Part shown: one piece after another, positions 18,078-45,883 of the stretch | Layout of the letters: every line of letters begins with the position of its first letter | Position numbering within the stretch: position 1 is the first letter of the stretch | Assembly (NCBI GenBank): GCA_019096195.1 | Contig: JAGTXK010000103.1 | Span: 496,001-560,000 of the forward strand | Length of the DNA: 64,000 bases | Source of the DNA: Boletus sp. NGJ | Taxonomy: Eukaryota; Basidiomycota; Agaricomycetes; Boletales; Boletaceae | Reading direction: 5' to 3' | Program-made: the position numbers and the translations under genes | Notes under the pieces: generated by a model | Told to the model about the DNA's origin: nothing | The model's input: only the letters and a program-made list of their open reading frames with translations | Database searches by the model: none

Positions 18078-18733
18078 TTATAGCACCAAGGACCGTCGAG
18101 CGGGTCTTCTTCGCACATTCGGAACGTTCCTCCCATGTTCCCATACCATGTGCTCAGGAGTGGCCGTACTCCCGAACTTCACTTGCGCATTCAGGTATTC
18201 TGTAATTGGTCGCTCGGTTTCGGGGATCTGCTGAATATGAACGAGGTCTTGCAAGGTCACCATGAGAGCAGGGTACTTGGATAAAAATGAATACGCCGTG
18301 GTTTCAACTCCCGCAGCATAGATGCGGAGGCAGCGGTCATCGACATCCCGCTCTGGGAAAGTAACGGAGAACGAGGATGGCTGACCAAGGTCGGCCAGAG
18401 TGGCGATATAAGGAAGCGTCTCGGAATCGGAGGCAGACTGGTCTTTCTCTTCGCCGCTCAGGTTTTTATGTCGGCGGGTGATGGAATGCAGAACGTATTT
18501 CGAATTCGTCGATTCACGAGCCTTGTCGGAAATGAGAATCTGCGACATGCGCAATTTCACTGACGTTTTTTCGGGGCCACCTTTAAAATAGATCGGTATC
18601 ACCTTGGACTCGAAGACCTCGAGTGTTGTAAGGCGTTTCGCCGGGAGGGTCGACTACCTTCGTTCAGTCAATAAGTTCTCTGCATGACGCAAATCGCGGA
18701 GAAGAATAGGTGCACGTACAGATTCGACTTCAT
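18078..18733 (-). CDS. Gene U, unidentified protein (whole copy at arm A)
   Basis: A two-exon model fits. A short exon from an ATG at 18,733 (MKSNLY) ends at a GTGCACC donor. An intron of about 62 bp follows, with acceptor GGTAG, then a 576-bp exon (18,653-18,078). The joined frame is phase-consistent and gives about 197 residues, with STLPAKRLTTLEVFESK leading into VIPIYFKGGPEKTSVKL and later FPERDVDDRCLRIYAAG. I do not recognise a family, and there is no clear membrane segment. It lies about 125 bp beyond the RRP45 stop on the same strand. The arm boundary at 18,604 cuts its second exon, so only the first 17 residues of that exon are shared with the other arm. Confidence 0.4.
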
Positions 18734-18857
18734 GGAACCATCGGTACTGTCGTCATTGCAGCCACTCTCAACTATACTGAGACCACATGCAAACAACAGC
18801 CATTTTCACGAGCTCTGGCATTCGCAGAACCTGTCGACTACTTTTTTATTGCGGAGC

Positions 18858-19959
18858 TTATCGTACCTCGACCTTGCGTTCTGCCCAATCTTCTCGTAAC
18901 CGAGCTTCGACTAACTTGTCCAAATCTTTCGCGATACCTACGGCGACGTTGAGCAGCCGCAGAATCTCTTCCGGTGCCGTCGACACGCCGCCCGCTTTGT
19001 GCAAGACACATATCTCGCGCTGCGCGTTGAGCGCGATACTCATCGTTCCAGCACTCAGCCTTTGTTCCAGCAGCGAGGGATCTACGACAGGACGCGTCGT
19101 CGGATCGGGGAAGAATGCAAACGTGATGCAGAACGGCGTGTGGTGAATAGCAAGCGGTACAGGGGCGCGCTCTTCTGGCGCATGCTACGATAACAGGATG
19201 CGTGTTCAGTTCAATAGACGACACCATATCCCCCAAGGCGAGGGGTGATATACGAACCACGATGACGTCGTCTCCGATGACCTCGACGTCTGGTCGACGA
19301 AAATGTTTCAAGGCGACGATCCCTGCGAGGCAGGCACAGTCGAGCATGTTTCCTGCATCGGCGAGACAGTGCACCGTAAGGCGGAGGTGCCAAACCTAGC
19401 AGTCCGCGATTTTTAGTGCGTCAAATGGAGGTACAGTACGGACATGACGAACGCGTTGTCCGGCGAGGATGCAAAGAGATTCCTTGTCGATCGCGTCGCT
19501 CCGCCTCAGAACCTTGTCAAGCATCCGTGTCATCGTGACCTCATCTTCAGACGGCCTGCCACACCCAAACGCACGACGATAAACACTCAGAAAATAGAGA
19601 TCAGATCGTACGGCCTACCGACCGAGTTCGTAATCGACAGAGGCCATGGGCGAAATTTCGGAATGGAGGGTGATGATGCCCTCGAATGGGCGTTCGGGTG
19701 GCGGTTTGACCATTTTCGCATCGACATGGGCGATAACACTGCGTGGAATGTGTTGGACCTGCGCGCACGAAGCTGGTCGATGTGTTCGTGACACGCACCG
19801 TGTCTTGCCAAATGTGCATTCGACCCAACCTAATTCTGACCCGAAAGTGAGCGTCGGTGTCCGTAGTTCCAGTGGATCGCGTCCATCAAGACGGAGCGAC
19901 TGTCTCAAAGCCTCGTATGTGAACTCTTTCTCGGGTATTGAAGGAGATTGAGGACGCAT
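18858..19959 (-). CDS. RRP45: Exosome complex component RRP45 (RNase PH fold), copy A
   Basis: A five-exon gene encodes about 283 residues. Exon 1 starts MRPQSPSIPEKEF and carries LRLDGRDPLELR and FGSELGWVECTFGKTR. Exon 2 reads VIAHVDAKMVKPPPERPFEG and HSEISPMASVDYELGR. Exon 3 reads RRSDAIDKESLCILAGQR. Exon 4 has ADAGNMLDCACLAGIVALKHF. The last exon has PVVDPSLLEQRLSAGTMS and LNAQREICVLHKAGGV, ending ERKVEVR. This order is diagnostic of the RRP45/EXOSC9 subunit, a catalytically inert RNase PH-like ring protein of the nuclear and cytoplasmic RNA exosome. The length is slightly under the fungal norm. It is divergent from TRM112 with 96 bp between starts. All exons are open, so this is the working copy. 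Confidence 0.92.
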
Positions 19960-20055
19960 GTGTTACGAGGTTGAAGTCGTCAAAGAACTCTGTTGCTTAC
20001 GTACGCACGGCTTAGGACATTCTCTTTCGTACCACTGGCATCCTCACGCTGAATC
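19960..20055. promoter_or_regulatory. Bidirectional intergenic region between RRP45 and TRM112
   Basis: Only 96 bp separate the divergent start codons of RRP45 (19,959, minus) and TRM112 (20,056, plus). Any promoter elements must be shared or lie inside the genes. I see no TATA box. The same spacing is kept in arm B (41,888-41,983). Confidence 0.5.
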
Positions 20056-20611
20056 ATGGTCCGTTTGATCACCCATAATTTGCTTGCTTGCCATGCAAAG
20101 GGCTGCACCATCAACAACTTTCCATTGATATTGCAAGATATCCAAATCGAACTACGCGAACAAGAGTTCAATCCCGATTTTATCAAAAATATCCTTCCGA
20201 GGCTCGAATGGCCTGCCCTCGTCGGTGCAGCCACTTTGGCAGGTGTTCGTGTCTCTTCATCCAGCCTTACTTTCTCAAGTAGATGCTGTAGGTCGGAGAC
20301 ACTTCTCTACCACCCGAGCAGCCAGAGATGACAGACGATGAATTCTTGCAAAAACTCCATCACGTCCTCCTCGAGGTGTTCCACCGCGTCTTGTTTCCGA
20401 TCCGTCCCGTGATTGCTTACCATGTTGCACGTGATACGCAGATACACGTCGTCGAGGGCGTGATGGTATGTCCAAATTGCAAGCATTCCTACCCGATTTC
20501 GAATGGCATTCCCAACATGGTGAGTTCCTACGTTACATCCTCTTTGGCCTGCACGGCCATAATTGCACATTACATTATTCGTAGCTATTAGCAGAACATG
20601 AAATTGGTTGA
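20056..20611 (+). CDS. TRM112: Multifunctional methyltransferase activator TRM112, copy A
   Basis: A four-exon gene encodes about 130 residues. Exon 1 reads MVRLITHNLLACHAKGC and FPLILQDIQIELREQEF, then FIKNILPRLEWPALVG. Exon 2 reads VGDTSLPPEQPEMTDDEF and LQKLHHVLLE. Exon 3 reads IHVVEGVMVCPNCKHSYPIS. The last exon ends LLAEHEIG. The zinc-binding Cys pairs C12/C17 and CPNC are present. TRM112 is the small partner that activates methyltransferases acting on tRNA, rRNA and release factors. Introns use GTTCGT, GTGTTCC and GTGAGT donors in consistent phases. Its stop is 12 bp from the end of the convergent unresolved reading frame at 20,624. Confidence 0.92.
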
Positions 20612-20623
20612 TGCTGGTCAACA

Positions 20624-21700
20624 TCAAATGTTCTTACCGACCCGGACACGATCAGCTGAATTCGATAGGAACCTGTGAGTGGTCCCGGCATTGCAAGTAG
20701 TGGAGCTATCGATCAGTTGCTGTATTTCCATGAAGGTCGATATCGACACCATCTGTGGTTTCATTATACTCTGCATTGCCTTTTCGACATCAGCACTCGG
20801 TGCTGGAGTGGACGTGTCGTCGAATGTAATAAAAGCACACAACAATAGCTCAAGATCTTTTAATCATCATCACAAACGACGAGCTAGTTTCCCATCAAGC
20901 CGAGCTGACCAGGTGCTGAGAAGAATACGAATGTTGTAATTGGCTAATATACGGGAGTGTCACGATCGTATCGGTCACCCACCAACTTGCGAGGTAATAC
21001 GTATACTTGCTCGTTAGCCCAAACCATCCAGTCGCACCACACTCACGTTGATGTACTGATCCCGAACCAGTTCACCCCGTCGTTCTCCCACATAGTAGGC
21101 ACGGTATGGTTGACACTCTGCACTGGGTCCAAACCATCTAGCGTGAGTTGGGCCACGTTCCTAGAGCTCGAGCACAATCATTGCTATATCATGGGAGAGG
21201 GTCGTCGGTGGTGTTCATCACGGGCAGTCCAGCTCACACCGAAGACGTTGGTCCATTGCTTACTTCATGTCCTCCCAAAAGTTCTGAACGTAGAAAGGCG
21301 AAACCATCCTGCGATGAGTGATGCCCAAGTTGCAGTGGAGCGAAACAGCGTCCAAGTCTCAGCTGCCCCTTGACGTTCGACGTCTAGATGAACTCCACTC
21401 TATGGTTAATAATATTTTTCGGTGTCGAGTCCTTGTACGGACGACTTGCCGCCATGCACGACAAGAGTGGTTCGGATGATAACTTGTGACCTTTTAATTC
21501 CGGTCCAACGGCGTCGCAGGATGACACCGTAGATGGCTCGCCACGCTGTTTTCTTGATGCTCAACGGAATACAGGTGTCCTCGGAACGCCCAGTCCGGAT
21601 GCGTTTTATGGATGTATATAATAGTGCACGCATACCGCTCACCTGGCGAGTCGGGATATATGAACTTACACTCGCAGCGCCATAGGATCGTTCTCTATTT
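20624..21700 (-). other. Probable intron-rich gene on the minus strand, not resolved (arm A)
   Basis: Several short open stretches look coding, such as one ending at 20,624 that contains FDDTSTPAPSADVEKAMQS, and one near 21,100 (in arm B orientation) reading DGLDPVQSVNHTVPTMWEND. I could not join them into a gene or recognise a family. The same pieces occur in arm B at 40,250-41,319 with a few substitutions and an indel, so selection on them is unclear. Confidence 0.3.
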
Positions 21701-21910
21701 TGCAAACTTCGCTGGGATTTTTATTTCCCGGACGGGAGCGAGCAGGGCAGAATTCGATGGTAAGTTGCTCACACGAGTCGCCGATTGATGGAAGCAATGA
21801 GTGCAAAGGAAAAGGCAATGGAACGGCTTTATTTGGTCATCAGCACCTACAACATGACGTGACCAATATCTCAGCTTCATCTCTAGTCGTCTATGGCGCC
21901 AGAAACCTCT

Positions 21911-24900
21911 TTATTGTACCGTGAGTGTGGTATTGAGGTACACCTCCTCGCTTGTTCCCACAAAGATGCTGAAATTACCAGGCTCGACCACCCATTGGTG
22001 GCTAGACGAAAAAGGTAATGATAACGCAGATCAGTTTGTTTTTTGAGGGTGAGGATGTACTGATGAGGACTTGCCTGAGAGACCATACGGCAAGCTGACT
22101 CGACACCACCGGGATGGTTACCGTCTTCGATTGTCCCGCACTACAACCCACCGAGTCAGCGAGACAGGGATAGATGAACACCATGCCAGACTCACGGGAT
22201 GTCCACCTTGGTGAAGCCGATCAACTCCATGTTCGGGGTGACGACAGAGCTGAAGAGATCTGTCATGTAAACCTATTTCGGGGACAAACGCATTGTCGGC
22301 TCAAAAACGCGATCAATTTCTTGCTGTCCAAACTGACCTGAACGACCTCCTTGCCATGCATCGAGCCAGTGTTGTGGACTGTCACGGTCACGTTGAAGTC
22401 CTCGTCCGTTCCGATCGTCGAACAAGATAGCTGCAAGTCGGTGCTGAATGTTTCTGTGAGTACACACCTGGATGATCGGAGTGGGGAACGGTTTCACGCA
22501 CTAGTTGAACGTCGTGTAGCTCAGTCCACGACCGAAGCTCCATGTTGGAACGGGGATGTCAAGGACATACTAGCAGTATCCTGGGTCATAGGAGAGAGGC
22601 TGTGCACATCGAAGGACATTACCTGGTGTCCAAACAGGAGGGAATCGTTCGGATAGATCATGCCAGGGTCGACCGGCCGGCCGCCTTTAAGGTAGTTGTA
22701 AAAGACGGGCGTAGTGGCAACGCTTCTTGGAAACGAGACAGGGAGTTTGCCTGCCGAATGGTCAGCGATGAGCATGGAAGGACTGGTTGAACGACATTGT
22801 CATGCATACCAGACGGGTTGACTACTCCAAAGATGATTTCGGCGATGGCGAGACCGCCCAGCTCCCCTGGATAGAACTGCTGGACCACGGCGTCCACGTC
22901 TGCCATGCAATCAGAAAAGTTAAGGTAATCATCGGAGATGGCTTACTCTGTTGAATCCAAGGGTTGGTTACGGGCTTTCCGCTCACGAAAACTACGATCG
23001 TCGGAGTACCAGTGGCTTGAATGGCCTGTACCAGCGGGAACTGCGCCCCTACGAGACTCAAATCCGATAAATCGACATGTTCGCCCGTCGTCGCATTCGA
23101 TCCGGGAGTCCACAAGAGTGTCTGGTCCAGCGACCACGTGCCTACCATGACAATGGCGACATCAGATTTCTTCGCTGTTGCGATCGCCTCGGAAAACCCT
23201 GACTCGTCGTTCGACCAGAGCTTGCAACCTTCGGCAAAGTTGATCTTGACAGATGTATTGGCGAGGAACTCAGTGAAACCTTGAAGCGGTGTTATGCCGT
23301 TGTTTGATGCATTGAAGAAGACATAGTCGCCGAACTGGTACTATGATGAGAAAAAGTCTTGGTGTGGAGAACGGCGAGGTCGCCCACCGTAACTCTGTCT
23401 GATTGTGGTCCTATGAGCGCAATGGAATTGATATCGGTGCTCAAAGGAAGTATGTTGTTATTGTTCTCAAGGAGAACAATCGCCTCTTGTTCCATTTGGT
23501 GGAGAAGGTCTCTGGTGGCCTGTGTTCGCATTGTAGAAGCATAATCAGGGTAGGGATATGGATCTGAGAGCACAATTGAGCGCAACTCGTATTCATATAG
23601 TCAGACATACTTTCGAAAAGTCCGAGGGCGAGCTTGGTTCTGAGGATGGTCTTTACAGTTTCATCAACATAACTAACATCCACCGTTCCGCTTGCAATTT
23701 GGTCTGGAAAATACATTAGATAGGAAAGTTGAACGATTGGCACGAACCTGGCAGTGTAAGGTAGGTGTAGGTGCCACCACCCATTTCACCACTGAGCCCG
23801 TTCTCGAGCGTGAGCTTTGCGGCACATTCCCTCGTGGGACAAATTCCATGGAGAGTGATTAAAAAGTCCACGGAGCCTGCATCGGAGGTGACAAAGTATT
23901 TGTAACCCCACTCATCACGAAGCTACATTCGCTGTCAAGAATATATCATCGCGATCAAACAGTCCATAGCTTACAATATCAGTGAGCAGATCTACGACAA
24001 CTGTCAGCAACCTGTCCAATAATCAGGATACAACATACATTTGTTAGCGACATTGGGGAACTCCATCATAACTTGCATAGGCAGTCATTATCGACAGCGC
24101 GTCCAAACACGCGTAGTTGAATGGCTTGAGGTAATAGGTCCGGAGTTCACGCTCTCCTCCAGTGACTGGTGCAAGATTCCTGAAATTCTCAGGTTACCCT
24201 AGTTATCTATGTCAGCAATTCTTGAACTCACAATCCTCCATGTGGGCTACCATAGGCCGTGAAGTGTTTACACGTCGCAGCAACGCGAGCAGTTGCTGTG
24301 TCACTGACATTGCGCCGGCGCCCAGATTGGACACCAGTAACATATGCGCGACCCATCTGACTTGTTCTGACAACTTATTGGTGACCGTACGGATGTGGTT
24401 GAGGGCGGAGACGTACAAGAAAGGATCTTCACCATAATTCTCCTCCACTCTACCCCATCGAAGCTCCCGGGACAAGTCAAGAACAGGGGCAAATAGCTGA
24501 GAGTAGCCCAACCCTTCTGCTTCTGTGGCGATTGTTCTGGCAGCCTCTTGCAAGAGGGGAGCGTTGAAGGATGCGGCAAGACCGATTGGGGACGGCCATG
24601 TTGTTCCGTTATCCGTGAACCCATGAAGCCCTAGTGCGTTTTTGAAATCTGCTAAAGTACTCCACATGATAGGATAATCTCACCCTCAGACTGGATGATG
24701 GCGGGTATACCAAGGGTGGTGTTCTCCATCAAGTACTGCTGTCCGATCATGATGGCGTAAACGATCTTGTCCCAAGGAGCGAGGTAGCCAGCCCAGATCG
24801 CTCCTGCTTTATACTCCATCATTTGTTCCTACGTCGATAAAGTGAACGCTGAAAACATGGATAAGAAAGCACACAACGTACCAGACCAGTCTGGTTATAT

Positions 24901-25237
24901 GTAAGCGTATTGTCCAGTGGGTCTGTCATATTCATCCATCCATCGATATCACCCTGGATGCTGCGCCCCGAGTCTAAGAGCCACATAAACACGACGAGGA
25001 AAGGACAATACTCACAGCTGAGCAACCTTCTCTTGTACTGTCATCCTCGGTAACAGATCGTTCACCCGGTCTTCGATCGACGCATTCGGATTCTTGTAGA
25101 TAGGAAGTGAGCCGTCGTGGTTGGACCCTCTCGCTTCGACAGAGAAATGCAACATGATTGACAGCAGCGTTTGACAGTGTTACGACTGAGACCACCAAGA
25201 TAACCCAAGCAGGAGCCTGGGGGAAGAACTTGTTCAT
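21911..25237 (-). CDS. Glycoside hydrolase family 3 (beta-glucosidase/xylosidase type), whole copy
   Basis: A many-exon gene encodes roughly 770-780 residues. N-terminal blocks are NASIEDRVNDLLPRMTVQEK, then LHGFTDNGTTWPSPIGLAAS and LFAPVLDLSRELRWGRVEEN. The catalytic nucleophile Asp sits in VTSDAGSVD (codon 23,881-23,883). The C-terminal half has QEAIVLLENNNNILPLS, VMVGTWSLDQTLLW, VVQQFYPGELGG, NPSGKLPVSFPRS, WSFGRGLSYTTFN and a fibronectin-III-like end closing TLTVQ. Such enzymes release glucose or xylose from short saccharides, usually outside the cell. The 5' end is uncertain: an ATG at 25,237 (MNKFFPQAPAWVILVVSVV) looks like a signal peptide but is out of phase with the mature frame, which can also start at an ATG at 25,155. 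Positions below 23,218 are duplicated in arm B. Confidence 0.85.
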
Positions 25238-25769
25238 GTTGGGTGTCCCCGTTGAGTCCAGATAAGCGACTCGGCATGTTTCTTGCACCCATTTATGCTG
25301 GATCTAGCTCCCGAAATTATCGCAGGGAATCTCTGGCACGCTAGAGACGAAGAACGTGGCGAGTAAAAAGTTGAAACACTCGGAAGGTATATGACAGGAT
25401 CAATCGAAGACGTAACGAGAGGCGGGTCGTTGTGAATGGCCGCATCAGGTTTACAAATTACCCGACAGTAACCACATTCAAAGCGGTTCGTCGAAGGATG
25501 GTGGTGGCTCTGGTGAGTGCGTACATCGGCTACGTCGGGTAGACGCATGGTGGGCCATCGAACAGTGGCACCTGGTCTAGTAAACTAGATGAGATTTGGC
25601 GAAAGCGTTACACGCCGAGTCTCGTTCCCACTGCCCAGAGGAAAAGATTTCTCTTGCCAGTGATTGTTTCAAGTTTGCGCCGTTTCGAGACCTTATACTA
25701 ACCGACCATCCGAAAATTTCTCGGGATTGCTTATTATAGTAACGGTTTGCGACGAATTTGACGGTTTCC

Positions 25770-26336
25770 TCGGGCCAGTGCTAGTACCGCCTGCCCAACG
25801 GGCCCTTCTTCAGTGATGATGCTATCGCCATGGAAGACGTGCACATTGCTATGCGTACACTCGGTTTCAGGCCGAGGCATCTCTCGTCTATTTTGACCAC
25901 CCTCGTTGCTATCTTCCTTTTGAGCAACATTCAGTTCAGAGGCTGATGCCAAGGATGTTTCCGCGTCCGTCGCGAACATTCCCGTCCTCGAGCATGTTGC
26001 ACGCCTCCTTGGTGTCGCGCCGGACGACCTTGCGCAGACGTTGACGAAAGGAAATCTGTACCGTCCTTCTCAGCGTCGAGCAAAGTGCGATGCAACATGA
26101 TTCACTCATGCGATCTCTACGCCATTCCTTTTGCTTATTTCGTCGAAATGACGAATCACAAGATTGCCCCTGCAAACCATGATGTTCTTTCCACAGCCCA
26201 GCTGATTCTCTTCGACCCTCCTGGTTTCCAGAATCGCGGTCCTGCAGGCACCGGCGGCTCGATGATTTTCACGGGAACTGCTCCCCTCATTTCCGCCCTT
26301 GGCCAAAACAAGTTTGATGTGCTTTGTATCCTATAA
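25770..26336 (+). pseudogene. Chitin synthase fragment (myosin-motor-like domain)
   Basis: Read on the plus strand in shifting frames: YRLPNGPFFSDDAIAMEDV, TLGFRPRHLSSILTTLVAIF, ADAKDVSASVANIPVLEHV, LLGVAPDDLAQTLTK, TVLLSVEQSAMQHDSLMR, DLYAIPFAYFVEMTNHKIAP, FDPPGFQNRGPAGTGGSM and TAPLISALGQNKFDV. This order matches the myosin-head-like domain at the N-terminus of basidiomycete class V-type chitin synthases, which extend hyphal-wall chitin at the plasma membrane. Only about 190 residues' worth is present, with at least three frame changes, and neither the rest of the motor domain nor the synthase domain is in the window. It is a gene fragment, ending where the NACHT relic begins on the other strand. 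Confidence 0.7.
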
Positions 26337-26344
26337 GTCTCTCC

Positions 26345-28160
26345 CAGTCCTTCCAGAAGGGTCTTGAGCACCCTCCGAATTTCCGATACCGATGTGCACT
26401 TGTCGAGTGTGTCGATCTGACATTGTACCCAATGGAACCTTTAACACAAACTCGTGAGTCTAGGCAGTGAACATGTAAATTATTGCTCCTTACATCCTGT
26501 CTGCCTTCGCACACACTTGAGATTGGATCTCCTCTTTTAGCTTCCCATCGAATGTTCTCAACCGACACCGTGAGTCGAGCTCCCTCGTAACATGTAGCAG
26601 GATATCAGCCGACAGTTCGTAGACCATTTTGTCCATGGAGATGCACGGAAGATGGGAAAGCATCTGGGTGATGTTCTGCAGAGGCCGACTCGTGACAAAG
26701 ATCTGTACGTCACGACTACTCATGGTGAGGCCATCCAGGAGGGTCTCCATCTCTCTGCACTCATCGAGTGCGTCGACAACGACGAGGGGCTTTCGAGGAC
26801 ATAATCTCCCAACCCTCGACAGATAGTGTGGCAGTCCTTTGACGGTGTAGAACGGATCTACTCGACTGTCGGCACCCTTGAGTAGCTCATCCAGGAAATC
26901 TTCCGGGTCGATTAAAACGACACGGAGGGATGCTATCAACTGGGCGAGAAGGGAACGCGTCACTTCTACAGCACTCGTAGATCGTCCCGTCCGAAAATCA
27001 CAATAGAAATAGGCCAGGATTTCTCCCTCCGTGTTTGTGAGGTCATCGATGGACATATGAACTGCTTGAGTGGTCAACAACTCTGCCTCAGTAACAGATG
27101 CCCTAAACGCACGCTAAAACTGATTTGCCAGCACCAGCTATGGTCAAGTTCGTGTCAGTAACGGAACCATTTGGATCATCGAAACCGTCGCCTGTCCCCA
27201 GGAGCGACAGGAATGAGTCACTCTTCCTTCCATGATCTATATGCATCCGTAGCAGTAGCCACATGCATGTATCGGATTGACGTATCGATGACGTTTCTCG
27301 ATGTTTCCGAGAGCACTTCACTGCGTCGAGTACTTTCAGTAACTTGTTCAGTTTCTGGGCTGGGTGTGCGATATCGTCAGTGAGACCTGTCTGTCCTGCA
27401 AACAGTTACTCGCACATACAGACAATTTCCTTCCTCTGATCTTCCATCATAATATCTTTCCTCGAAGTGGCTGGAAGTTCCTCCTGGTCGTGCACACGAA
27501 CCCCTCTGGTATCATTGAAGATCAGCTCAGAGCACGACCCCGCCACGAGGTCGCAACACTTACCCAATTGTAGAAGGGACAGCCTGTCTAAGAACCTCCT
27601 TGTAGTTCCTGTGCAAAGATGTGGATCATGAGCTCATCGAAATACTCAACACTCACCAGATGTCCGTTGTGAGCAAGAAGTGAAAATGCGCCCTGTGGGT
27701 ATAGAAAAGCGTCATGGCCGTATCGATGTCATCATCTTGGTGCCCGGATCTCATTGGGGTGAACCCAGTGAATGCTTGTGCATCATGATCGATATCGAGT
27801 AATTTCTCCATCTCTGTCAACGTTTCTAAACATGTTTCGGGTTCGCGACCGGACAGCCAATCCAACAAACGGTCATTGAACATATACTGACGACACAGCA
27901 CTGGATTGTCGAAGACTTGGAGGATGGCCCGTGAGGCATTGGCAATTGTCTGGAACTCGAATTCGAGTCAAATGAGAGTGTTGTCCGACTTGTCCGACCC
28001 TTCTAGTAGTGGAATACCGACTCGTAGCGTTTCGGACGTGTGAAGTGGCCAGCACGATGGGTTGTAGGGCACTTTTTGCAGAGTCCATCATGTAGAATGG
28101 GGTCGTGCGTGGTCTCATTCCTGTGGAGCATACCTGGTTCTGTGAAAGGTGCACCTAGAC
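26345..28160 (-). pseudogene. NACHT-type STAND NTPase gene, decayed and truncated
   Basis: Minus-strand exons include an N-terminal helical part (MFNDRLLDWLSGREPETC), a Walker A site in AGAGKSVLA, the region TEGEILAYFYCDFRTGRS, a Walker B site in RKPLVVVDALDECRE, a sensor-like VQIFVTSRPLQNIT, and after an intron a stretch corresponding to RWVQCQIDTLDKC and LKTLLEGLGETYRI. These are standard blocks of Agaricomycete NACHT NLR-like proteins, which act in self/non-self recognition and programmed cell death. Frames break just after Walker A and between the N-terminal part and the P-loop. The C-terminal repeat domain is missing: sequence changes to the chitin synthase fragment at about 26,340. Confidence 0.7.
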
Positions 28161-28462
28161 CACTCCAGTCTAGACTTCAGTCCAAATATCTTCCGAGTCC
28201 CGCGTGTTGTGGTTGTGTGACGATTCTGCGTTGGCTCAGACAGGCGTCTTTGGCTGATTCCGACGAGTCTTGCAAGAATGGAAGTGAAGGAAGGGCATCC
28301 CGATCCAACCTACACTGTCGGCCAAGTAAAAAAAAAAGAGTAGACGGGTGGTTGTATTATTTGTGGATATTTACATAACCATAATATTTCGTGCAGTAGT
28401 GTTCCGAACATTTTCGCTTGACATATTCAGCCGACACCGTTCAACATCTAGATTCTGGACGT

Positions 28463-32264: not shown

Positions 32265-33700
32265 TTACCTACTCACGCAAGGCACACATCGTAACGTTGG
32301 CAGATTGCGAACGAGGAGAGTCGAGACGAGAACGCACTGAGACCAACGATCACGTTCTGTAGCTCCTGAGGCTTGCCACTCAAAGTTCTTGGGATGTGGA
32401 TGTTCCGGGTGCCTGCGCCGTAACGCGCCTGTGCATCCAGCGTCGTAGCAGAATAGCCTGAGTGTGGTATCGCCATTTCCACCGCCGAGCAGGTTCTTCA
32501 TCGTACGTCAGAAGTGATCCTGGGGTGCAGGTTGAACGTGTCACCAGAGTAGCCTACACGACGACGACACAGATTATGCGTTGTTGAATATGTAGAGGTT
32601 GTATAGGAGAACCACCGTGACGGAGCTGGCCGCTCTTTAGAGTTGCAGCGAGGGCATCCTTATTGCAGATGGCGCCACGGGTAGTGTTGACCAACCATGC
32701 ACGCATATCAAATGAACACATCAGAATTGAGTTGGGTACTACATACGGGCTTGAAGTAGTTGATGAGGTCAGCGTTGACGAGGCCCTGAGCGCCTTCGTG
32801 CAGGAGACACGTCACACTGAGATCCAAATTCTGTGAGGTCATTGAGAGGGCGAGTACCAACGGCTCGAGCAGCAACTATGAAGAGGAATGGATACGTTGT
32901 ATGGTACTGTGGAATTCTATCTTACCCTCTGGGAGAGGAGCATAGCCATAGTAGAGAAGCTTTTTGGCGTCAAAAGGCCTTAAGCGTCGGAGGACACGGT
33001 AACCAATACGACCAGCACCGATAATACCGATCACCGCGTTCGATCTGGATTGAACAAATCAGCCTTCGAGCGAGAGGTCTTCGTATAGCGATATTACCTC
33101 ATCGGATGAGACAAAGTTCCTGACGAGAATAGGCATCACGATGTGCTCAGCGACGGAGGTAACATTGGATCCAGACCTTTGAAATTAATGATCACGGTTA
33201 CGCCCACAAATCACGGCGAATGAACTTGCGCCGAGAACCTAAATGTTCTTCTTAACGGCGGCGTTCATGTCGATTTGATCAGAGCCGACACCGGGGGTGA
33301 TACAGATGTTGAGATTCTGCGCCTGAAAGAGTGTGGGTACAAACAACACCAATAAGATGGTATGGAGCTCACCTTCTCCGATGGAAAGGGGTGGTAATCA
33401 ACACTTTGGTGTCCCGGAACTAGCTGTTTGGACCCGCTTTATCAACTTTGACCTACAAAGAGATCGAGATACCGCAAGGGGCGGTCTATAAAGGCAACAT
33501 ACGGTGTATTCACGACCAAGAGACTGAAGCCAAGTGCGGAGACCATGCTAAATGTATCAGAGAATGAGTGAACAGGTCTAGAAGACGTAGAGACGGCGAC
33601 CGATCAGGTTCTCGATGGTTCCCAGAGGACGGGGCTCAGCGGCGGGCGCTTTACCACTGTGATACATGAGAGCGAGAACTTTCTTCGTAATTCAGAGGTG
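32265..33700 (-). pseudogene. NAD-dependent formate dehydrogenase relic
   Basis: Recognisable blocks read on the minus strand, in order but in different frames: AEPRPLGTIENLIG near 33,620, LNICITPGVGSDQIDMNAAV near 33,270, NVTSVAEHIVMPILVRNFV near 33,130, [18 protein letters not shown] near 33,000, LLHEGAQGLVNADLI near 32,780, and KNLLGGGNG followed by GYSATTLDAQARYGAGTR near 32,430. Formate dehydrogenase oxidises formate to CO2 with NAD+; the Rossmann glycine motif GAGRIG is visible. Frame breaks and missing parts, including the catalytic His region, show it is not functional. It lies beside the poly-A tract at 33,921, but the introns appear to be retained, arguing against a retro-copy. Confidence 0.7.
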
Positions 33701-33920
33701 GAGTGAGGAACAGAGAAAAAAGAAATGGGGGAACTAACTGGGGAATAACGGCGTCGTTTTGTACGGGTTTGACCGGGAGGTAAGCCCACATCTGACGTGA
33801 CCCAGATAACATTGTTCTCCAGGCCATGCCAGACAACTCAATCATAAGTACCCAAATTTGTGTAACTTAGTATACAGCAGGTGGACCATACCTTATACGC
33901 AGCCCGGCCTGCCATTGCAG

Positions 33921-33946
33921 AAAAAAAAAAAAAAAAAAAAAAAAAA
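33921..33946. repeat. Poly-A tract of 26
   Basis: An uninterrupted run of A between the formate dehydrogenase relic and the peroxidase gene. Such runs are prone to length error. Confidence 0.9.
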
Positions 33947-34240
33947 CAGGATTTCAAACTCAGCCGGGCTGTGACACTTTTGTAGAAAGTACTGCCACAA
34001 GCGAAACGACGAGCATACGACATTGCAAGCTAAGGACAAGTACATATGCACATTACAGTACGAAGATACGAATACGCTATTAAACAAAGACTAAAAGTGT
34101 GAACAAATGGTCCAGTGGCGGTATGTATACGTGCAAATAGATATAAGCGGTTGTAAAGTATGAGCGAAAAGCGTATTGGGCATAGATCAAAATAAATCAA
34201 CGAAAAAACAAGACTCATCAATTGTTCATTCGAGATAGCT

Positions 34241-35121
34241 TCACTTCGTCTTTGCCGTCTCATCTGTCTGAGACCCGGTTTCGTCGTCCAGGGGGTTGTG
34301 TATCTTTCCCTCTTTCATATTTTTCATCCGTTCTCGTATGACGGTTGCCATTTTGTAGGTGTGGTAGAGGCCCTGGGTGTGGCTGGGCGTCCAACCGTCA
34401 GGTAGACGTTCTTGTTGTACCCATAGACGCAGTACGTCCATGTCAAGGCCATACGTCCCCGCGTTTTCTCCACCTAATATACCAATCGCAACCGCCATCT
34501 CTCCCCGTGCAATCTCCGCATGGACGCCATCCAACGGCCGACACTCCGCTTCTCGCTTCACCCGAATGTTTGCGACATCCTCGAGTGTCATACGACCAGG
34601 CTGATAGCGTCCGCCTCGCTCAAGAGCGACATTCATGAGTGAGTCGTTCACTGGGATGGGTGCGTATTCATCTTCTTTGTGTGCATCCACGTGGAAGAGT
34701 GAGGCATCATGCTCAATCAGGTTGTGACGCGCGAGATCGGCGAGCGACATATTACGATATTGTGCCAGGAGGAAGAATCCACCAAAGGCGAGAAAGTAGG
34801 CGAGGACGCTGGATAATTGGTACCCCTCCTTGAGGCCCCTAGCGATATCGAATACGCCAATCCTCTTACCACTCCGTGGTCTAGATGGTACGAACGCGGT
34901 CAGAGGATGCAGAAACGAAACGACGTGTTGGAGAGGACTTACAAGAAGCCGTGGTTGGCCAGGGTGTTTAACGCTGGGCAAGGCGACCTGAGGTCACCGG
35001 GTTGTGGGGGGCAGTAAGCGTGTGTGTTCCCTGTTATGGGACATACACCAGACGAGTGTGCATGGTGGTCGTGAGCAGCAACTGGAGAAGCCAGCACGGG
35101 AGAGACTGGGCAGGACATCAT
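34241..35121 (-). CDS. Haem-thiolate peroxidase (chloroperoxidase / unspecific peroxygenase family)
   Basis: A two-exon gene. Exon 1 (from ATG 35,121) reads MMSCPVSPVLASPVAAHDHH and ends RSPCPALNTLANHGF; a GTAAGT donor and CATCTAG acceptor join it to PRSGKRIGVFDIARGL. The axial haem ligand is Cys48 in the PCP motif. The distal-side signature is EHD in NLIEHDASLFH, followed by PIPVNDSLMN. The protein is about 245-250 residues, the size of the short peroxygenase group. These enzymes use H2O2 for oxygen transfer to aromatic and aliphatic substrates. No strong signal peptide is visible, which fits many short forms. A hydrophobic stretch (LAYFLAFGGFFLLAQY) lies inside the fold. Minus-strand TATATAAG at 35,203-35,196 is a candidate TATA box. 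No damage seen. Confidence 0.88.
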
Positions 35122-35195
35122 GCTCGTTGAATATGAGAATGAGAATGGAAAGATACTTGATAGATGAGAAATGAGTTGGGGTCAGTGAGTCGGGG

Positions 35196-35203
35196 CTTAT
35201 ATA
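35196..35203 (-). promoter_or_regulatory. TATA box of the haem-thiolate peroxidase gene
   Basis: TATATAAG on the minus strand, about 75 bp upstream of the ATG at 35,121. This is a normal distance for a fungal core promoter with a short leader. Confidence 0.4.
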
Positions 35204-38200
35204 CGGATGACATTACTTCCGGGTATCAGTAATATCATAGGTCCCCTTCAGGACGAACCCAAGCAATACTTTAACGAGCTCACTTGCCAAACTAAAACTG
35301 CTCGTATTAGTGCACATTTTTAACCCTAATTAGAGCCGAATGCGAATACGTACTAGACAAAAAAAATGATGGGACGCACTTGAATTTCGTTGATATGGGG
35401 ACTCTGCGGCTTGAATGGCGGGGCTCGTATCGCAGATGCGGCCGGAGCACAGCAAGGGCACAGCAGTTCGCATTGGGATCTTGATGACCCCAGTTCCTAG
35501 CAGTCATCCTGGGGTCAAAATTGACCAGAGAGAGGCTGTGGTGACTGGAAACATGAACTCATGGCTACATTGTCTGCAAAGTGCCGCCGTTGGCGTGAGA
35601 TTTTTACACAGCATTCGCATCAGCGGAAACCAATCGAAGAGCTTCTACGATACAAACATCCTTCTCTAGGCAAAGTTACGTCCACGCAACTTTCACGGCG
35701 CCGACCGTCTGCCGTCCTTGTCTCAGGTGTAACGACCCTGTTCCTCCAAGATTTTCATCTGGTCAAGCTTCAGCCCGCGCCTCCTCGCCGCCGTGGACGC
35801 GGCGAAACAGCTGCTTTCGTCTTGCGCGATCACGGGGCAGGGCATATCAATGGGTATCACCGCAGATACGGTACGCATGGCTGAGCTCCCTTGTTCCACT
35901 CATGGTTTGATAAAACATACGCTATGTCATTGCAGTACGACCTCACATTGACCTACATAGGTCCCTTGATGCGGCACGCACACGATTCGTAATCACGTTA
36001 TGATTGTAGATCTTGAGCGAAGAGAGCTGACATCGAGCGCTGATCAACACTCGCGTGGTCACGTCAATGAGCGTGAGACGAGGCCAGCGCGGTACTGTCT
36101 TCCAGGCCCTCCATTGTTCCCGTATTCCCACCGCACTTTCACCTATCGAATCCAAGAATTTTGACAGACATACGTCGTTTCTGGAAGGGAAGACACAAGA
36201 TGAACGTGACACAGCATGATCCTGAATCGGGGAAACATAGACCCAACCGATGGTAGCGGCGGGAGCGGTCAGGTCATTTTATCGCACCTCAAGCCTCAGG
36301 TGTCAATGGGTTTGCCACGCGTGCATGCAAAGTTATCCGCGTGAGAATGGTCTCGGTGCTATACTGCCGGTGGATAGATGTAGAATTTTCTATGAACCGT
36401 GGGCATCTTGGCAAGGTCGACCGTCGAACTGACAAGTTCATACAGAAATTTCTGGTGGAATCCTGCCGCTCAGGTCCTGCTACCCCGCCACAGTGGTGGA
36501 GTTTCTTGGCCGAAAGACTATCATTACCAAATCTTTACGTTCACAAGGTCATGGGTCGGTGGTAATTGCAGGCTGCACCCTGCATGGTCGTCCCTCTCCG
36601 AGTGTCACGCCACTGGAACTCGATCCTACAATATATCGTAACAGTTGGGCTTGAGCAGGGGAAACCGTTCCTCATTACGACTACCTTTTGGCCCATCTGC
36701 CACTTTCCTAAGTAATTGTTTTCTGAGCATGGGTAACGCCAAGTGATGTACATAGCTCGGCGCGGACCTCACCGGGTATCGATTTACCAATGAACAGCCT
36801 TAGTAACTAGGTGTGCCTTTTCTTGAGGAAAAGGACTATTGCACAGCCCAAAACTTCCAGTACTAAGACATACTCCATTGCTCAACTTTCGGCGAGTCAC
36901 ATTTCGAGTCATGCAAAGACTCGTAGCTGTGCGAACGCCATACAGGTACTTGGTCCTTTCATAACGCTGGGACCCGCCATGCCGCCATCAGACGTTCACA
37001 TTCCATGTACATACCTCCACGGTGATCCGACTAGTGACGTCGGGATCGTCTCCTACTACCATATTCTTTTATATTTGATTTACCGCGCACCGCGCACAAA
37101 CTGCTGTGAAACATCCATATGCCAGCTTGCACAGCATATGATGGCGGGTTCTTCCACTGCAGCCCAAAGGGTCTACTGTTATCGATATAGCCAATCTGGA
37201 CAGTTATGGGTTGCTATCATTTTGGCTATGTCACTGAGGTCCGGGTGGCATTGTACCAGCTCTTATGGCTCATCCGAGTCACTTGCATATCACGAGTGCC
37301 CATGTACCGAGGTTGTGATACTCCGTCGTCCTTCGTGGGTCGGACGTACCGTTCCCGGCCCTCGATCCTCGGCGACGTACAGCCCTTGCGGTCACATCGA
37401 AAAGGCAAAGTTTCTGATCGGAACGGTCTGCTGTGGCCGAGTGTGCATACACTTTCAACGGGTTCGTTCAAAGTATCTTCGACTGAGGAAATTTACAACG
37501 CTGTGCGAGGCACAGCATGTAAAAATAAGTGATTTTTGATCTAGAACGGTATTCTGCTGGGTCCCCTGTATGATTCGACGCTGCGTAAGTGTTGATACAC
37601 GTATGTCATCACAATGAATTTGACGGTGGGGCTGTATCTCGCCTACTTACCTTCCGTCCGGATACAATAGCTCGTGGCAGTGCCATCATGTTTGGACGAC
37701 ATATCCTTTGTCAACATGCTTCCATCGGTCTTCTATGGTGTGTGTGCATCATGCATGGTCCCGGATATCGGTAGTTTCCGAGCCCGGAGCTGACCAAGTC
37801 CCTTGGTGTTGATGACGCCGTTGGATACAGGGAACGCTATTGTGACGGCGCGGATCGACTTGCGGGATCTGACATGCAGGCTGAGTAGCAACGCCACTTG
37901 TTGCCCTATGACAAGTCCGAATTCGCTACCAACCGTACTGCAGCCGCATGGATAGTCCCTTGGATTGCACTGCGGGAGACATGTGTTTCGTTTACGATTG
38001 CCAGATACGGGAGGTGGCCATCAGCTGGGCATCTGAGAAACGGCGTAGGCTTGCTTGTCAACCTAGGAAAAACTAATGGCGGTCGGATGACTCTCACGTG
38101 GTCTTACGGGAATTCCCGAACCGGCATACTACTAGGGGCCAATGCGGGTGGATCCTGACTCGGACGCTCTCCGCCGGAAGGTACTCACCGGTGCCAGCAG

Positions 38201-38767
38201 TTCACTCATCACTACTATGCACTGGCACATCCCTGCACATCCACGGATGATCCACCATATTGCACACCTACCTCAAAACAGCATCCAATCTCGGAGCCCA
38301 AGGACGCCGAGATCGGCTACATATTGAAGACGGTCGGTATCTTCGTGGTCCTCGGAATGACTTCTAGTATGTGCCGATTTGTTGGGGGGCCAATTTTGAA
38401 GGAAATGATGACTTGAAAGCCGCGCGTATTCCGATGCGGAGTAGAGAAGCTCAGGTATCTCCAAGCTTTAAAAAATCGGTTTGAAACTGTGGGGTCGTGG
38501 GAGTGTCTCGCTCATTCTTGCTGGGAACCACACGGAGACATGGAGGATAGGCAACAATGCTGGTGTGGCCCAAAAGTCAAAATATGCCCTGTGCGATCGT
38601 CAGGTGGATCGGCTGGAGCACCGTTCGCATCCAAACACACGAAGTCGTCCAATGATGGGTAGTCCTTTTTTCAATGAAAACGTCCCCACCTCAGACGAGT
38701 CGCGGTTAACTCTGCGCGACCGGTCTTCCTCTGTATAACACGAACTGCGATCCGATCGGTTTCACGC
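35204..38767. other. 3.5 kb of host DNA with no recognisable gene
   Basis: Open frames up to 242 codons (36,811-37,539, plus) lack domains, and their residue use looks random. The CpG-rich composition matches the surrounding host DNA. A minus-strand frame at 35,943-36,212 weakly recalls a cytochrome P450 segment but is too poor to call. Confidence 0.4.
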
Positions 38768-40036
38768 CTGGTCGAACGACGAGTCATGGTTTCCTTGTCG
38801 TGGTAGGCACGTGGTCGCTGGACCAGACACTCTTGTGGACTCCCGGATCGAATGCGACGACGGGCGAACATGTCGATTTATCGGATTTGAGTCTCGTAGG
38901 GGCACAGTTCCCACTGGTACAGGCCATTCAAGCCACTGGTACTCCGACGATCGTAGTTTTCGTGAGCGGAAAGCCCGTAACCAACCCTTGGATTCAACAG
39001 AGTAAGCCATCTCCGATGATTACCTTAACTTTTCTGATTGCATGGCAGACGTGGACGCCGTGGTCCAGCAGTTCTATCCAGGGGAGCTGGGCGGCCTCGC
39101 CTTCGCCGAAATCATCTTTGGAGTAGTCAACCCGTCTGGTATGCATGACAATGTCGTTCAACCAGTCCTTCCATGCTCATCGCTGACCATTCGGCAGGCA
39201 AACTCCCTGTCTCGTTTCCAAGAAGCGTTGCCACTACACCCGTCTTTTACAACTACCTTAAAGGCGGCCGGCCGGTCGACCCTGGCATGATCTATCCGAA
39301 CGATTCCCTCCTGTTTGGACACCAGGTAATGTCCTTCGATGTGCACAGCCTCTCTCCTGTGACCAGGATATTGCTAGCATGTCCTTGACACCCCCGTTCC
39401 AACATGGAGCTTCGGTCGTGGACTGAGCTACACGACGTTCAACTAGTGCGTGAAACCATTCCCCACTCCGATCATCCAGGTGTGTACTCACAGAAACATT
39501 CAGCACCGACTTGCAGCTATCTTGTTCGACGATCGGAACGGACGAGGACTTCAACGTGACCGTGACAGTCCACAACACTGGCTCGATGCATGGCAAGGAG
39601 GTCGTTCAGGTCAGTTTGGACAGCAAGAAATTGACCGCGTTTTTGAGCCGACAATGCGTTTGTCCCCGAAATAGGTTTACATGACAGATCTCTTCAGCTC
39701 TGTCGTCACCCCGAACATGGAGTTGATCGGCTTCACCAAGGTGGACATCCCGTGAGTCTGGCATGGTGTTCATCTATCCCTGTCTCGCTGACTCGGTGGG
39801 TTGTAGTGCGGGACAATCGAAGACGGTAACCATCCCGGTGGTGTCGAGTCAGCTTGCCGTATGGTCTCTCAGGCAAGTCCTCATCAGTACATCCTCACCC
39901 TCAAAAAACAAACTGATCTGCGTTATCATTACCTTTTTCGTCTAGCCACCAATGGGTGGTCGAGCCTGGTAATTTCAGCATCTTTGTGGGAACAAGCGAG
40001 GAGGTGTACCTCAATACCACACTCACGGTACAATAA
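38768..40036 (+). pseudogene. 5'-truncated GH3 copy in arm B
   Basis: Only the C-terminal part is present, from MVGTWSLDQTLLW through WSFGRGLSYTTFN-equivalent sequence to TLTVQ. The catalytic nucleophile region (VTSDAGSVD) and everything upstream are outside the duplicated segment. The remaining exons keep splice sites and differ from arm A at scattered bases (for example Tyr to His and Ile to Thr in the LFGHQ-VLDIP region). It cannot hydrolyse substrate. Sequence left of 38,768 is unrelated to GH3. Confidence 0.88.
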
Positions 40037-40249
40037 AGAGGTTTCTGGCGCCATAGACGACTAGAGATGAAGCTGAGATATTGGTCACGTCATGTTGTAG
40101 GTGCTGATGACCAAATAAAACCGTTCCATTGCCTTTTCCTTTGCACTCATTGCTTCCATCAATCGGCGACTCGTGTGAGCAACTTACCATCGAATTCTGC
40201 CCTGCTCGCTCCCGTCCGGGAAATAAAAATCCCAGCGAAGTTTGCAAAA

Positions 40250-41319
40250 TAGAGAACGATCCTATGGCGCTGCGAGTGTAAGTTCATATATCCCGACTCG
40301 CCAGGTGAGCGGTATGCGTGCACTATTATATACATCCATAAAACGCATCCGGACTGGGCGTTCCGAGGACACCTGTATTCCGTTGAGCATCAAGAAAACA
40401 GCGTGGCGAGCCATCTACGGAGTTGTCTTGCGACGCCGTTGGACCGGAATTAAAAGGTCATCCGAACCGCTCTTGTCGTGCATGGCAGGAAGTCGTCTGT
40501 ACAAGAAGGGCTCGACACCGAAAAATATTATTAACCATAGAGTGGAGTTCATCTAGACGTCGAACGTCAAGGGGCAGCTGAGACTTGGACGCTGTTTCGC
40601 TCCACTGCAACTTGGGCACCGCTACTCATCGCAGGATGGTTTCGCCTTTCTACATTCAGAACTTTTGGGAGGACATGAAGTAAGCAATGGACCAACGTCT
40701 TCGGTGTGAGCTGGACTGCCCGTGATGAACACCACCGACGACCCTCTCCCATGATATAGCAATGATTGTGCTCGAGCTCTAGGAACGTGGCCCAACTCAC
40801 GCTAGATGGTTTGGACCCAGTGCAGAGTGTCAACCATACCGTGCCTACTATGTGGGAGAACGACGGGGTGAACTGGTTCGGGATCAGTACATCAACGTGA
40901 GTGTGGTGCGACTGGATGGTTTGGGCTAACGAGCAAGTATACGTATTACCTCGCAAGTTGGTGGGTGACCGATACGATCGTGACACTCCCGTATATTTGC
41001 CAATTACAACATTCGTATTCTTCTCAGCACCTGGTCAGCTCGGCTTGATGGGAAACTAGCTCGTCGTTTGTGATGATGATTAAAAGATCTTGAGCTATTG
41101 TTGTGTGCTTTTATTACATTCGACGACACGTCCACTCCAGCACCGAGTACTGATGTCGAAAAGGCAATGCAGAGTATAATGAAACCACAGATGGTGTCGA
41201 TATCGACTTTCATGGAAATACAGCAACTGATCGATAGCTGCACTACTTGCAATGCCGGGACCACTCACAGGTTCCTATCGAATTCAGCTGATCGTGTCCG
41301 GGTCGGTAAGAACATTTGA
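40250..41319 (+). other. Arm B copy of the unresolved gene at 20,624-21,700
   Basis: The same short coding-like stretches as in arm A, in the opposite orientation, with several substitutions and a roughly 10-bp indel near 40,457. I cannot define its exons. Confidence 0.28.
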
Positions 41320-41331
41320 TGTTGACCAGCA

Positions 41332-41887
41332 TCAACCAATTTCATGTTCTGCTAATAGCTACGAATAATGTAATGTGCAATTATGGCCGTGCAGGCCAAA
41401 GAGGATGTAACGTAGGAACTCACCATGTTGGGAATGCCATTCGAGATCGGGTAGGGATGCTTGCAATTTGGACATACCATCACGCCCTCGACGACGTGTA
41501 TCTGCGTATCACGTGCAACACGGTAAGCAATCACGGGACGGATCGGAAACAAGACGCGGTGGAACACCTCGAGGAGGACGTGATGGAGCTTTTGCAAGAA
41601 TTCATCGTCTGTCATCTCTGGCTGCTCGGGTGGTAGAGAAGTGTCTCCGACCTACAGCATCTACTTGAGAAAGTAAGGCTGGATGAAGAGACACGAACAC
41701 CTGCCAAAGTGGCTGCACCGACGAGGGCAGGCCATTCGAGCCTCGGAAGGATATTTTTGATAAAATCGGGATTGAACTCTTGTTCGCGTAGTTCGATTTG
41801 GATATCTTGCAATATCAATGGAAAGTTGTTGATGGTGCAGCCCTTTGCATGGCAAGCAAGCAAATTATGGGTGATCAAACGGACCAT
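41332..41887 (-). CDS. TRM112: TRM112, copy B
   Basis: A four-exon structure identical to copy A. Exon 1 is identical at the nucleotide level. Exon 3 has one change, KHPYPISNG for KHSYPISNG, and a synonymous change lies in the QKLHHV region. Zinc-binding Cys residues and all splice sites are kept. Both TRM112 copies therefore look functional, unlike the neighbouring duplicated genes. The 96-bp divergent spacer to RRP45 is also preserved. Confidence 0.88.
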
Positions 41888-41983
41888 GATTCAGCGTGAG
41901 GATGCCAGTGGTACGAAAGAGAATGTCCTAAGCCGTGCGTACGTAAGCAACAGAGTTCTTTGACGACTTCAACCTCGTAACAC

Positions 41984-43086
41984 ATGCGTCCTCAATCTCC
42001 TTCAATACCCGAGAAAGAGTTCACATACGAGGCTTTAAAACAGTCGCTCCGTCTTGATGGACGCGATCCACTGGAACTACGGACACCGACGCTCACTTTC
42101 GGGTCAGAATTAGGTTGGGTCGAATGCACATTTGGCAAGACACGGTGCGTGTCACGAACACATCGACCAGCTTCGTGCGCGCAGGTCCAACACATTCCAC
42201 GCAGTGTTATCGCCCATGTCGATGCGAAAATGGTCAAACCGCCACCCGAACGCCCATTCGAGGGCATCATCACCCTCCATTCCGAAATTTCGCCCATGGC
42301 CTCTGTCGATTACGAACTCGGTCGGTAGGCCGTACGATCTGATCTCTATTTTCTGAGTGTTTATCGTCGTGTGTTTGGGTGTGGCAGGCCGTCTGAAGAG
42401 GAGGTCACGATGACACGGATGCTTGACAAGGTTCTGAGGCGGAGCGACGCGATCGACAAGGAATCTCTTTGCATCCTCGCCGGACAACGCGTTCGTCATG
42501 TCCGTGCTGTACCTCCATTCGACGCACTAAAAATCGCGGACTGCTAGGTTTGGCACCTCCGCCTTACGGTGCACTGTCTCGCCGATGCAGGAAACATGCT
42601 CGACTGTGCCTGCCTCGCAGGGATCGTCGCCTTGAAACATTTTCGTCGACCAGACGTCGAGGTTATCGGAGACGACGTCATCGTGGTTCGTATATCACCC
42701 CTCGCCTTGGGGGATATGGTGTCGTCTATTGAACTGAACACGCATCCTGTTATCGTAGCATGCGCCAGAAGAGCGCGCCCCTGTACCGCTTGCTATTCAC
42801 CACACGCCGTTCTGCATCACGTTTGCATTCTTCCCCGATCCGACGACGCGTCCTGTCGTAGATCCCTCGCTGCTGGAACAAAGGCTGAGTGCTGGAACGA
42901 TGAGTATCGCGCTCAACGCGCAGCGCGAGATATGTGTCTTGCACAAAGCGGGCGGCGTGTCAACGGGCACCGGAAGAGATTCTGCGGCTGCTCAACGTCG
43001 CCGTAGGTATCGCGAAAGATTTGGACAAGTTGGTCGAAGCTCGGTTACGAGAAGATTGGGCAGAACGCAAGGTCGAGGTACGATAA
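41984..43086 (+). pseudogene. RRP45: RRP45, copy B, with a one-base insertion
   Basis: Same five exons as copy A from the ATG at 41,984 to the TAA at 43,084. In the last exon arm A reads GTGTCGACGGCACCGG, and here the matching site (about 42,957-42,973) reads GTGTCAACGGGCACCGG, with one extra G. The frame shifts after LHKAGGVST and the last ~45 residues are replaced. Another difference is SEEEV for SEDEV in exon 3. The lost tail includes the last helix of the RNase PH fold, so this copy is probably not functional. A sequencing error at the G run is a simple alternative. Confidence 0.75.
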
Positions 43087-43210
43087 GCTCCACAATAAAA
43101 AAGTAGTCGACAGGTTCTGCGAATGCCAGAGCTCGTGAAAACGGCTATTGTTTGCATGTGGTCTCAGTATAGTTGAGAGTGGCTGCAATGACGACAGTAC
43201 CGATGGTTCC

Positions 43211-43476
43211 ATGAAGTCGAATCTGTACGTGCACCTATTCTTCTCCGCGATTTGCGTCATGCAGAAAACTTAAACTTATTGACTGAACGAAGGTAGTCGA
43301 CCCTCCCGGCGAAACGCCTCACAACACTCGAGGTCTTCGAGTCCAAAATAACAATGAGTCTAAGTTTTCCAGAGACCATGCATGTCGACAGGAGCGGCCC
43401 GGGCACAGGTATGAACAGCGGTATGCTACTTTTCTGTGCCGACAGGGTCTCAGAACGTCTTGCAGACACATTTTAA
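43211..43476 (+). pseudogene. Truncated gene U copy with a new tail
   Basis: The short exon (ATG 43,211, MKSNLY) and the first 17 codons of exon 2 (43,297 on, STLPAKRLTTLEVFESK) match arm A. Past 43,346 the sequence is unrelated and the frame runs on for about 43 codons to a TAA at 43,474. The intron is longer than in arm A by a short AAACTTAA-type insertion. It is the broken end of the duplicated segment, with a chance fusion tail. Confidence 0.5.
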
Positions 43477-43499
43477 TTTCCTCAAGGTAGCATCATCAC

Positions 43500-45020: not shown

Positions 45021-45023
45021 TAA

Positions 45024-45053
45024 CTGTCCAGTGCTGGCCAGTACTGGACAGTA
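45024..45053. repeat. 30-bp palindrome (hairpin)
   Basis: ACTGTCCAGTGCTGG is followed directly by CCAGTACTGGACAGT, the reverse complement with one mismatch. There is no loop. It stands just before the CATAGT-rich stretch. Confidence 0.7.
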
Positions 45054-45054
45054 A

Positions 45055-45265: not shown

Positions 45266-45269
45266 GGCT

Positions 45270-45410: not shown

Positions 45411-45589
45411 AAGTAAAGTGTTGACTTCATGTAATGAGTAGAGAAGGATAAAATTAAGAAACAAGAGAGTGTGGGAAAGTTTTTGAAGTCTGGCTTGTTT
45501 ATATAAGAATGGTGGCACAAACATTGGCAAACAATGTCCGCTTTTTTAACACTGAGTGTGGGAAAATGGACTTGGATATTTTTTAAATG

Positions 45590-45874: not shown

Positions 45875-45883
45875 CTTAAAATT

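Follow-up and report, generated by a model that had tools for sequence, protein, structure and literature searches.

Inverted duplications around a spacer are known from the human germline, where 21 spacers of fold-back inverted duplications have been sequenced, ranging from 766 to 70,466 bp and being shorter than 15 kb in 20 of the 21 cases, as described in PMC3907307. In Drosophila mojavensis, the inversion 2q is reported with inverted duplications of 1 and 4.3 kb at its breakpoints and with a gene that was partly copied (PMC3355041). Microhomology-mediated break-induced replication, as outlined in PMC2621351, is associated with nonrecurrent endpoints and with discontinuous duplications that are mixed with deletions. 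Among fungi, structural variation has been described in a wheat pathogen (PMC8192914). In the open-licence literature we found no description of a fungal inverted segmental duplication with microhomology, which does not imply its absence from print; with regard to the duplication of TRM112 and RRP45, the same literature offered just work on trypanosome ribosome assembly factors.

The locus presented here belongs to the 32.8 Mb assembly (141 contigs) of Boletus sp. NGJ and lies in a window of 64,000 nucleotides, the whole stretch of DNA that was analysed, which corresponds to bases 496001-560000 of contig C114 (867,521 bp). Its intron density and the genes present suggest a fungus and, probably, a basidiomycete. 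The original prediction of a 4.6-kb inverted duplication with its copies 15.5 kb apart was borne out by BLAST, by a repeat search, and by global alignment. We read the locus, with a probability of about 0.57, as a real and fairly recent inverted segmental duplication, the outer edge of which was trimmed by a small deletion; an event of this sort is ordinary in kind. Like the human fold-back duplications, it consists of inverted copies around a non-duplicated spacer, and its spacer would fall at the long end of the human set; however, the human cases described are chromosome-scale and proceed via dicentric chromosomes, whereas the duplication found here is small and interstitial (PMC3907307). 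It resembles the D. mojavensis inversions 2h and 2q, for which inverted repeats of 1-7 kb on either side and one truncated gene copy are described (PMC3355041), and the combination of duplication and deletion proposed for it recalls what is described for microhomology-mediated break-induced replication (PMC2621351). The arms, their genes and the centre are as follows.

18604-23218, plus strand: arm A; TTG at 18604-18606 may be part of either the arm or the adjoining F gene
18858-19959, minus strand: RRP45 copy A (exosome subunit), 5 exons, open, 282 aa
20056-20611, plus strand: TRM112 copy A, 4 exons, open, 122 aa, Pfam PF03966
22808-24631, minus strand: GH3 glycosidase, pieces of PF00933 and PF01915; the coordinates are the extent of the Pfam-matched pieces
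23219-38767, no strand: centre, with the GH3 5' half, an NTPase, GH92, and a family-2 peroxidase
within the centre, minus strand: GH3 5' half
26685-27053, minus strand: NTPase of NPHP3_N type
about 28750-31309, plus strand: GH92
34379-35022, minus strand: family-2 peroxidase
38768-43346, minus strand: arm B, inverted copy of arm A
38821-39140, plus strand: truncated GH3 C-terminal piece of arm B, cut at 38768
41332-41887, minus strand: TRM112 copy B, open
41984-43086, plus strand: RRP45 copy B, altered by two conservative replacements and by an insertion of 1 bp

BLAST aligned 18604-23153 with 43346-38795 over 4,563 columns at 98.47% identity including gaps (E = 0), and the repeat search found this inverted pair too, split into 7 blocks. 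As seen by eye, the match resumes past 23153 and reaches 23218 in one arm and 38768 in the other, so the predicted arm limits, 18604-23218 and 38768-43346, are correct. In the global alignment of the 4,550-bp core (18604-23153), 46 substitutions separate the arms, namely 40 transitions, 16 of them in CpG context, and 6 transversions; relative to arm A, the core of arm B carries insertions at four places (6, 1, 3, and 3 nt) and has lost 10 and 1 nt at two others, and a further net loss of 38 nt lies between 38768 and 38795, beside the inner edge of arm B. Such an excess of transitions, and the share of them located in CpG, suggests that the differences are due to mutation and not to consensus error. 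Gene conversion is not claimed: in a weak test based on the clustering of differences between the arms, the longest identical run was 485 bp (P = 0.25), and the spread of gaps gave P = 0.03, or 0.17 without the cluster at 21300-21530. A DNA search of the genome with the arm listed 14 matches, the two arms at full length and 12 short ones; since this search scores the best candidates alone, the count of only two full-length copies applies to the matches scored. In the four pairings of the flanks 12601-18603, 43347-49346, 23219-30000, and 32001-38767 nothing in common was found at E <= 1e-3. The arms are thus near-identical, non-TE sequences in opposite orientation with unrelated flanks, which is what an inverted segmental duplication should look like. 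Rfam gave no match in the window at the gathering score.

Each arm had been expected to span three to five genes, and this is roughly right, as two whole genes, RRP45 and TRM112, and a part of a third, GH3, were identified per arm. RRP45 and TRM112 stand head to head with the GH3 3' part alongside; their start codons are 96 bp apart, and not a single arm-to-arm substitution falls inside that interval. The splice sites of both genes were picked by eye. TRM112 is an activator of several methyltransferases, and both TRM112 and RRP45 are usually present once per genome. RRP45 copy A contains RNase_PH domains 1 and 2 (Pfam PF01138 and PF03725), and its closest solved structure is that of human RRP45, the PM/Scl autoantigen (E = 6e-19); no matches were obtained in the PDB search with one other RRP45 frame and one TRM112-region frame. 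The 1-bp insertion in RRP45 copy B shifts the frame approximately 40 residues before the end, and PF03725 is reduced there to positions 1-49 of 67, compared with 1-65 of 67 in copy A. This insertion, located in a short run of Gs, may be due to a sequencing error. TRM112 copy B differs by one replacement, Ser to Pro directly behind the C-x2-C motif, and by two changes that are silent, and the Trm112 domain was hit twice across the assembly in a whole-genome domain search, once per arm. RRP45 is probably functional in copy A only, and both copies of TRM112 may be functional.

The centre holds the GH3 5' half, the GH92, and the peroxidase that had been predicted, the last belonging to family 2. 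At the inner edge of arm A (23218), GH3 runs uninterrupted from the centre into the arm, as seen from both the Pfam pieces and the sequence. At the junction J2, where 38767 meets arm B, the gene is truncated, and what is left of it in arm B gives two PF01915 pieces (profile 84-163 of 200, E values of 2.6e-6 and 5.5e-5), both below the curated cut-off. Because GH3 is truncated and RRP45 is frameshifted in arm B, this arm looks like the copy, and arm A looks like the original. A gene that is unbroken at the edge of one arm and truncated at that of the other is also what an inverted segmental duplication should show.

A pair of this kind could also come from an assembly artefact or from a misjoined second haplotype: a divergence of about 1% fits the range between two haplotypes, and exact redundancies do occur in this assembly, as contig C75 equals C22 near 11 kb over 2,870 bp and C22 contains an inverted pair that is 100% identical over at least 14,532 bp. 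Those two redundancies, however, diverge by 0% and not by about 1%, and so they, as far as the two go, give no sign of haplotype differences of about 1%. The compared arm flanks are unrelated, the differences between the arms are mainly transitions, and the flank of arm B has an insertion history of its own, described below. The RNase_PH domain was hit eight times in the assembly, once per arm and six more times on five contigs, two of the six being pieces of one place on C101; barring these overlapping C101 loci, no second DNA-similar pair was found among the eight. An artefact is thus decidedly unlikely in our opinion. Large inverted repeats of this similarity had been called unusual in haploid fungal assemblies; this assembly contains at least one other, the C22 pair, which is longer than the arms, is fully identical, and may be an artefact itself.

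The outer edges of the arms involve F, a multicopy gene, and the following features.

17916-18606, minus strand: 3' end of a gene of the F family, which breaks off at junction J1, the outer edge of arm A
43347-43586, no strand: z, which joins arm B to the F upstream end
43587-43778, plus strand: upstream (5') end of F outside arm B (BLAST match 43587-43766)
43779-44938, no strand: mobile-element-like insertion of 1,160 bp, which splits the F upstream end
44996-45967, no strand: LTR-like element with the ends TGACA...TGTCA (by eye)

The outer edge of arm A is a junction inside F, which the original prediction had not recognised: the matching ends at 18601-18606 in all 14 fetched copies of the gene, and when one of these, L034, was used as a query, 12 of the 13 other copies extended 0.4-3.5 kb beyond the edge point, and the thirteenth (L049) resumed after a gap. 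The last 0.4-0.7 kb before this edge matches 20 other places among the matches listed, some of which are identical pairs, and a shorter piece matching the same F 3' sequence is also present within the window. With a slash marking the point of joining, J1 reads ...CACCTTG/GACTCG, F reads ...CACCTTG/TCGATG, and the flank of arm B reads ...TATTTTG/GACTCG; hence, J1 has a microhomology of 3 bp (TTG), common to F and to the sequence outside arm B. No Pfam match was found at E <= 0.1 either for F (three X-masked frames of one copy, L035) or for the arm B flank (three frames).

Outside arm B, z has no other match in the genome by DNA search, and the F upstream end that follows it picks up again past the insertion, at 44939-44999 (BLAST match 44933-44999), to stop where the LTR-like element starts. 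The insertion has GTT on both sides and two near-full relatives at 94% identity, and it is missing from the corresponding locus on contig C65; for the LTR-like element, no target duplication is visible by eye. Relative to the arm, F has the same orientation outside arm B as at arm A, which fits the order F-z-arm. Both pieces of F have their best paralogue at one locus, C65:567.3-570.8 kb. The upstream end is 83% identical to C65:570616-570800 (E = 1.5e-46, the next best being 3.3e-13 or weaker), and the 3' end matches C65:567266-567958 at 91% over 17916-18606 and at 94.6% over 18085-18606, the latter versus 86.4% or less in the 13 further copies fetched. About 9 kb from it, the C65 block also has an RRP45 fragment, the side and orientation of which are those expected from the F-arm order. 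The remainder of F was not found on the arm B side, and 35000-38767 of the window matched itself alone in the genome search, with no F front. It was also considered whether arm A had simply been inserted into an F gene, which was rejected because the F front was not found on the other side.

Mobile-element-like sequences adjoin arm B and the region is repeat-rich, so the arms might be a mobile element or might have been moved by one. We regard this as hardly probable at all: the arm is made of host genes, it occurs at full length only twice among the matches scored, and by eye there is no target duplication at the edges of arm B. Mobile arms together with a target duplication, by which a composite transposon is recognised, were not found here.

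From these results, a history of duplication followed or accompanied by deletion may be proposed. The original order, sited at arm A, would have been F-z-RRP45/TRM112-GH3-centre. Of this, no less than z, RRP45, TRM112, and the 3' part of GH3 would then have been copied and placed in reverse 15.5 kb downstream, the simplest route being a switch of the replication template or a fold-back at a break. In the same event or, perhaps, in a later one, a deletion of about 3 kb, a length estimated from C65, would have removed the F front and z beside arm A and linked the 3' end of F with the arm by way of the TTG microhomology, thereby fixing the outer edge, and the flank of arm B would have retained z and the F upstream end up to the LTR-like element at 44996. 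Compared with microhomology-mediated break-induced replication as described in PMC2621351, microhomology is read here at J1 alone (3 bp).

Several observations temper this history. At C114:605-616 kb, an RRP45 fragment and F are present in the opposite order, which counts against duplication plus deletion, as does the absence of the remainder of F beside arm B. Since z is without a relative elsewhere, its contact with the arm bears no independent sign of being ancestral. Further F fragments are located at 14859-15230 of the window and at 21432-21600 in both arms; with such fragments common in the region, finding F next to each of the arms means less than it might seem to.

The foremost rival, a staggered-break inversion, would give rise to the observed distribution of old and new edges as well. 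In it, the centre would have turned round, and fill-in of the single-strand overhangs at one of the breakpoints would have produced the 4.6-kb segment, in inverted orientation, at either side. The inner edge of arm A is old, that of arm B is new, the outer edge of arm A is new, and that of arm B is possibly old, all of which fits; one event suffices instead of two, and inversions of D. mojavensis are described with flanking inverted duplications of similar size (PMC3355041). However, the cut F 3' end should then continue at the reverse-complemented 38767, and the genome search found no severed partner there, although its absence would be excusable if the F front had been lost at the break. Such an inversion also requires the two F pieces to be unrelated copies that share the best paralogue and the orientation by chance. 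In contrast to the situation described for D. mojavensis (PMC3355041), the F pieces, as read in one genome, favour the present orientation as the original one. We therefore hold the staggered-break inversion to be possible but rather unlikely.

In another route to the same edges, the arms would have recombined with each other after the duplication and thereby inverted the centre, so that the inner and outer edges are no longer paired. Inverted 4.6-kb arms at 99% identity are suitable substrates for recombination, and the edge pattern agrees with it; however, an extra event is needed, and we find this route very doubtful. Duplication with a deletion at one outer edge thus remains the preferred reading.

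In principle, recombination between the arms could invert the centre, which would amount to an inversion polymorphism if such recombination still takes place. A more elaborate scenario is that the centre was inverted through staggered breaks or arm recombination and segregates both ways, with a working TRM112 copy B and a broken RRP45 copy B on a shared bidirectional promoter, so that a formerly co-expressed pair would be uncoupled; this we consider unlikely. The duplication doubles TRM112 and RRP45, and the locus offers a readable example of how inverted segmental duplication and microhomology deletion may together shape a repeat-rich fungal region.

On the left side of the window, 1192-2808 (terminal inverted repeats of 226 bp, 96%) and 9216-10819 (222 bp, 89%) are related elements, each roughly 1.6 kb long and probably DNA transposons; further relatives were found on the window's own contig, C114, near 607 kb and also on contig C65. 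At 13011-13250, two 57-bp arms form a perfect inverted repeat around a spacer of 126 bp. The LTR-like element at 44996-45967, in the flank of arm B, contains short tandem repeats and has dozens of relatives across the genome.

The multicopy gene F, about 3 kb in length, is represented in the window by the following pieces:
14859-15230, piece of F
17916-18606, piece of F, cut at the outer edge of arm A
21432-21600, piece of F

Elsewhere in the assembly, copies of F were found at loci L034, L035, L038-L040, L043-L050 and L053, with several on contigs C65 and C22. A P-loop-like motif was recognised in F by eye, and the single copy scanned had no Pfam match.

Exact redundancies were also observed. 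Within C22, 140001-154532 and 332001-346532 (assembled from loci L058, L044 and L059, and L060, L048 and L061, respectively) form an inverted pair spaced by about 177 kb and 100% identical over at least 14,532 bp, a lower bound as identity reaches the ends of the compared sequence; the pair is either very recent or an assembly artefact. Similarly, C75:91000-93869 is identical to C22:11131-14000 over 2,870 bp, up to the ends of the compared stretch, reflecting either a redundant contig or a recent copy.

The assembly also holds six degraded fragments of RRP45:
C114:445016-445713
C114:605255-605715
C65:579637-580055
C65:585401-585610
C73:912857-913010
C7:107021-107174

A region of internal repeats in the window (52496-53317, 67-77% identity) has a relative at C114:443-444 kb, adjoining the fragment there. 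Several of the fragments carry internal stop codons, and TRM112 was not found beside them at the loci checked; these degraded remnants suggest that this neighbourhood had been duplicated repeatedly at earlier times.
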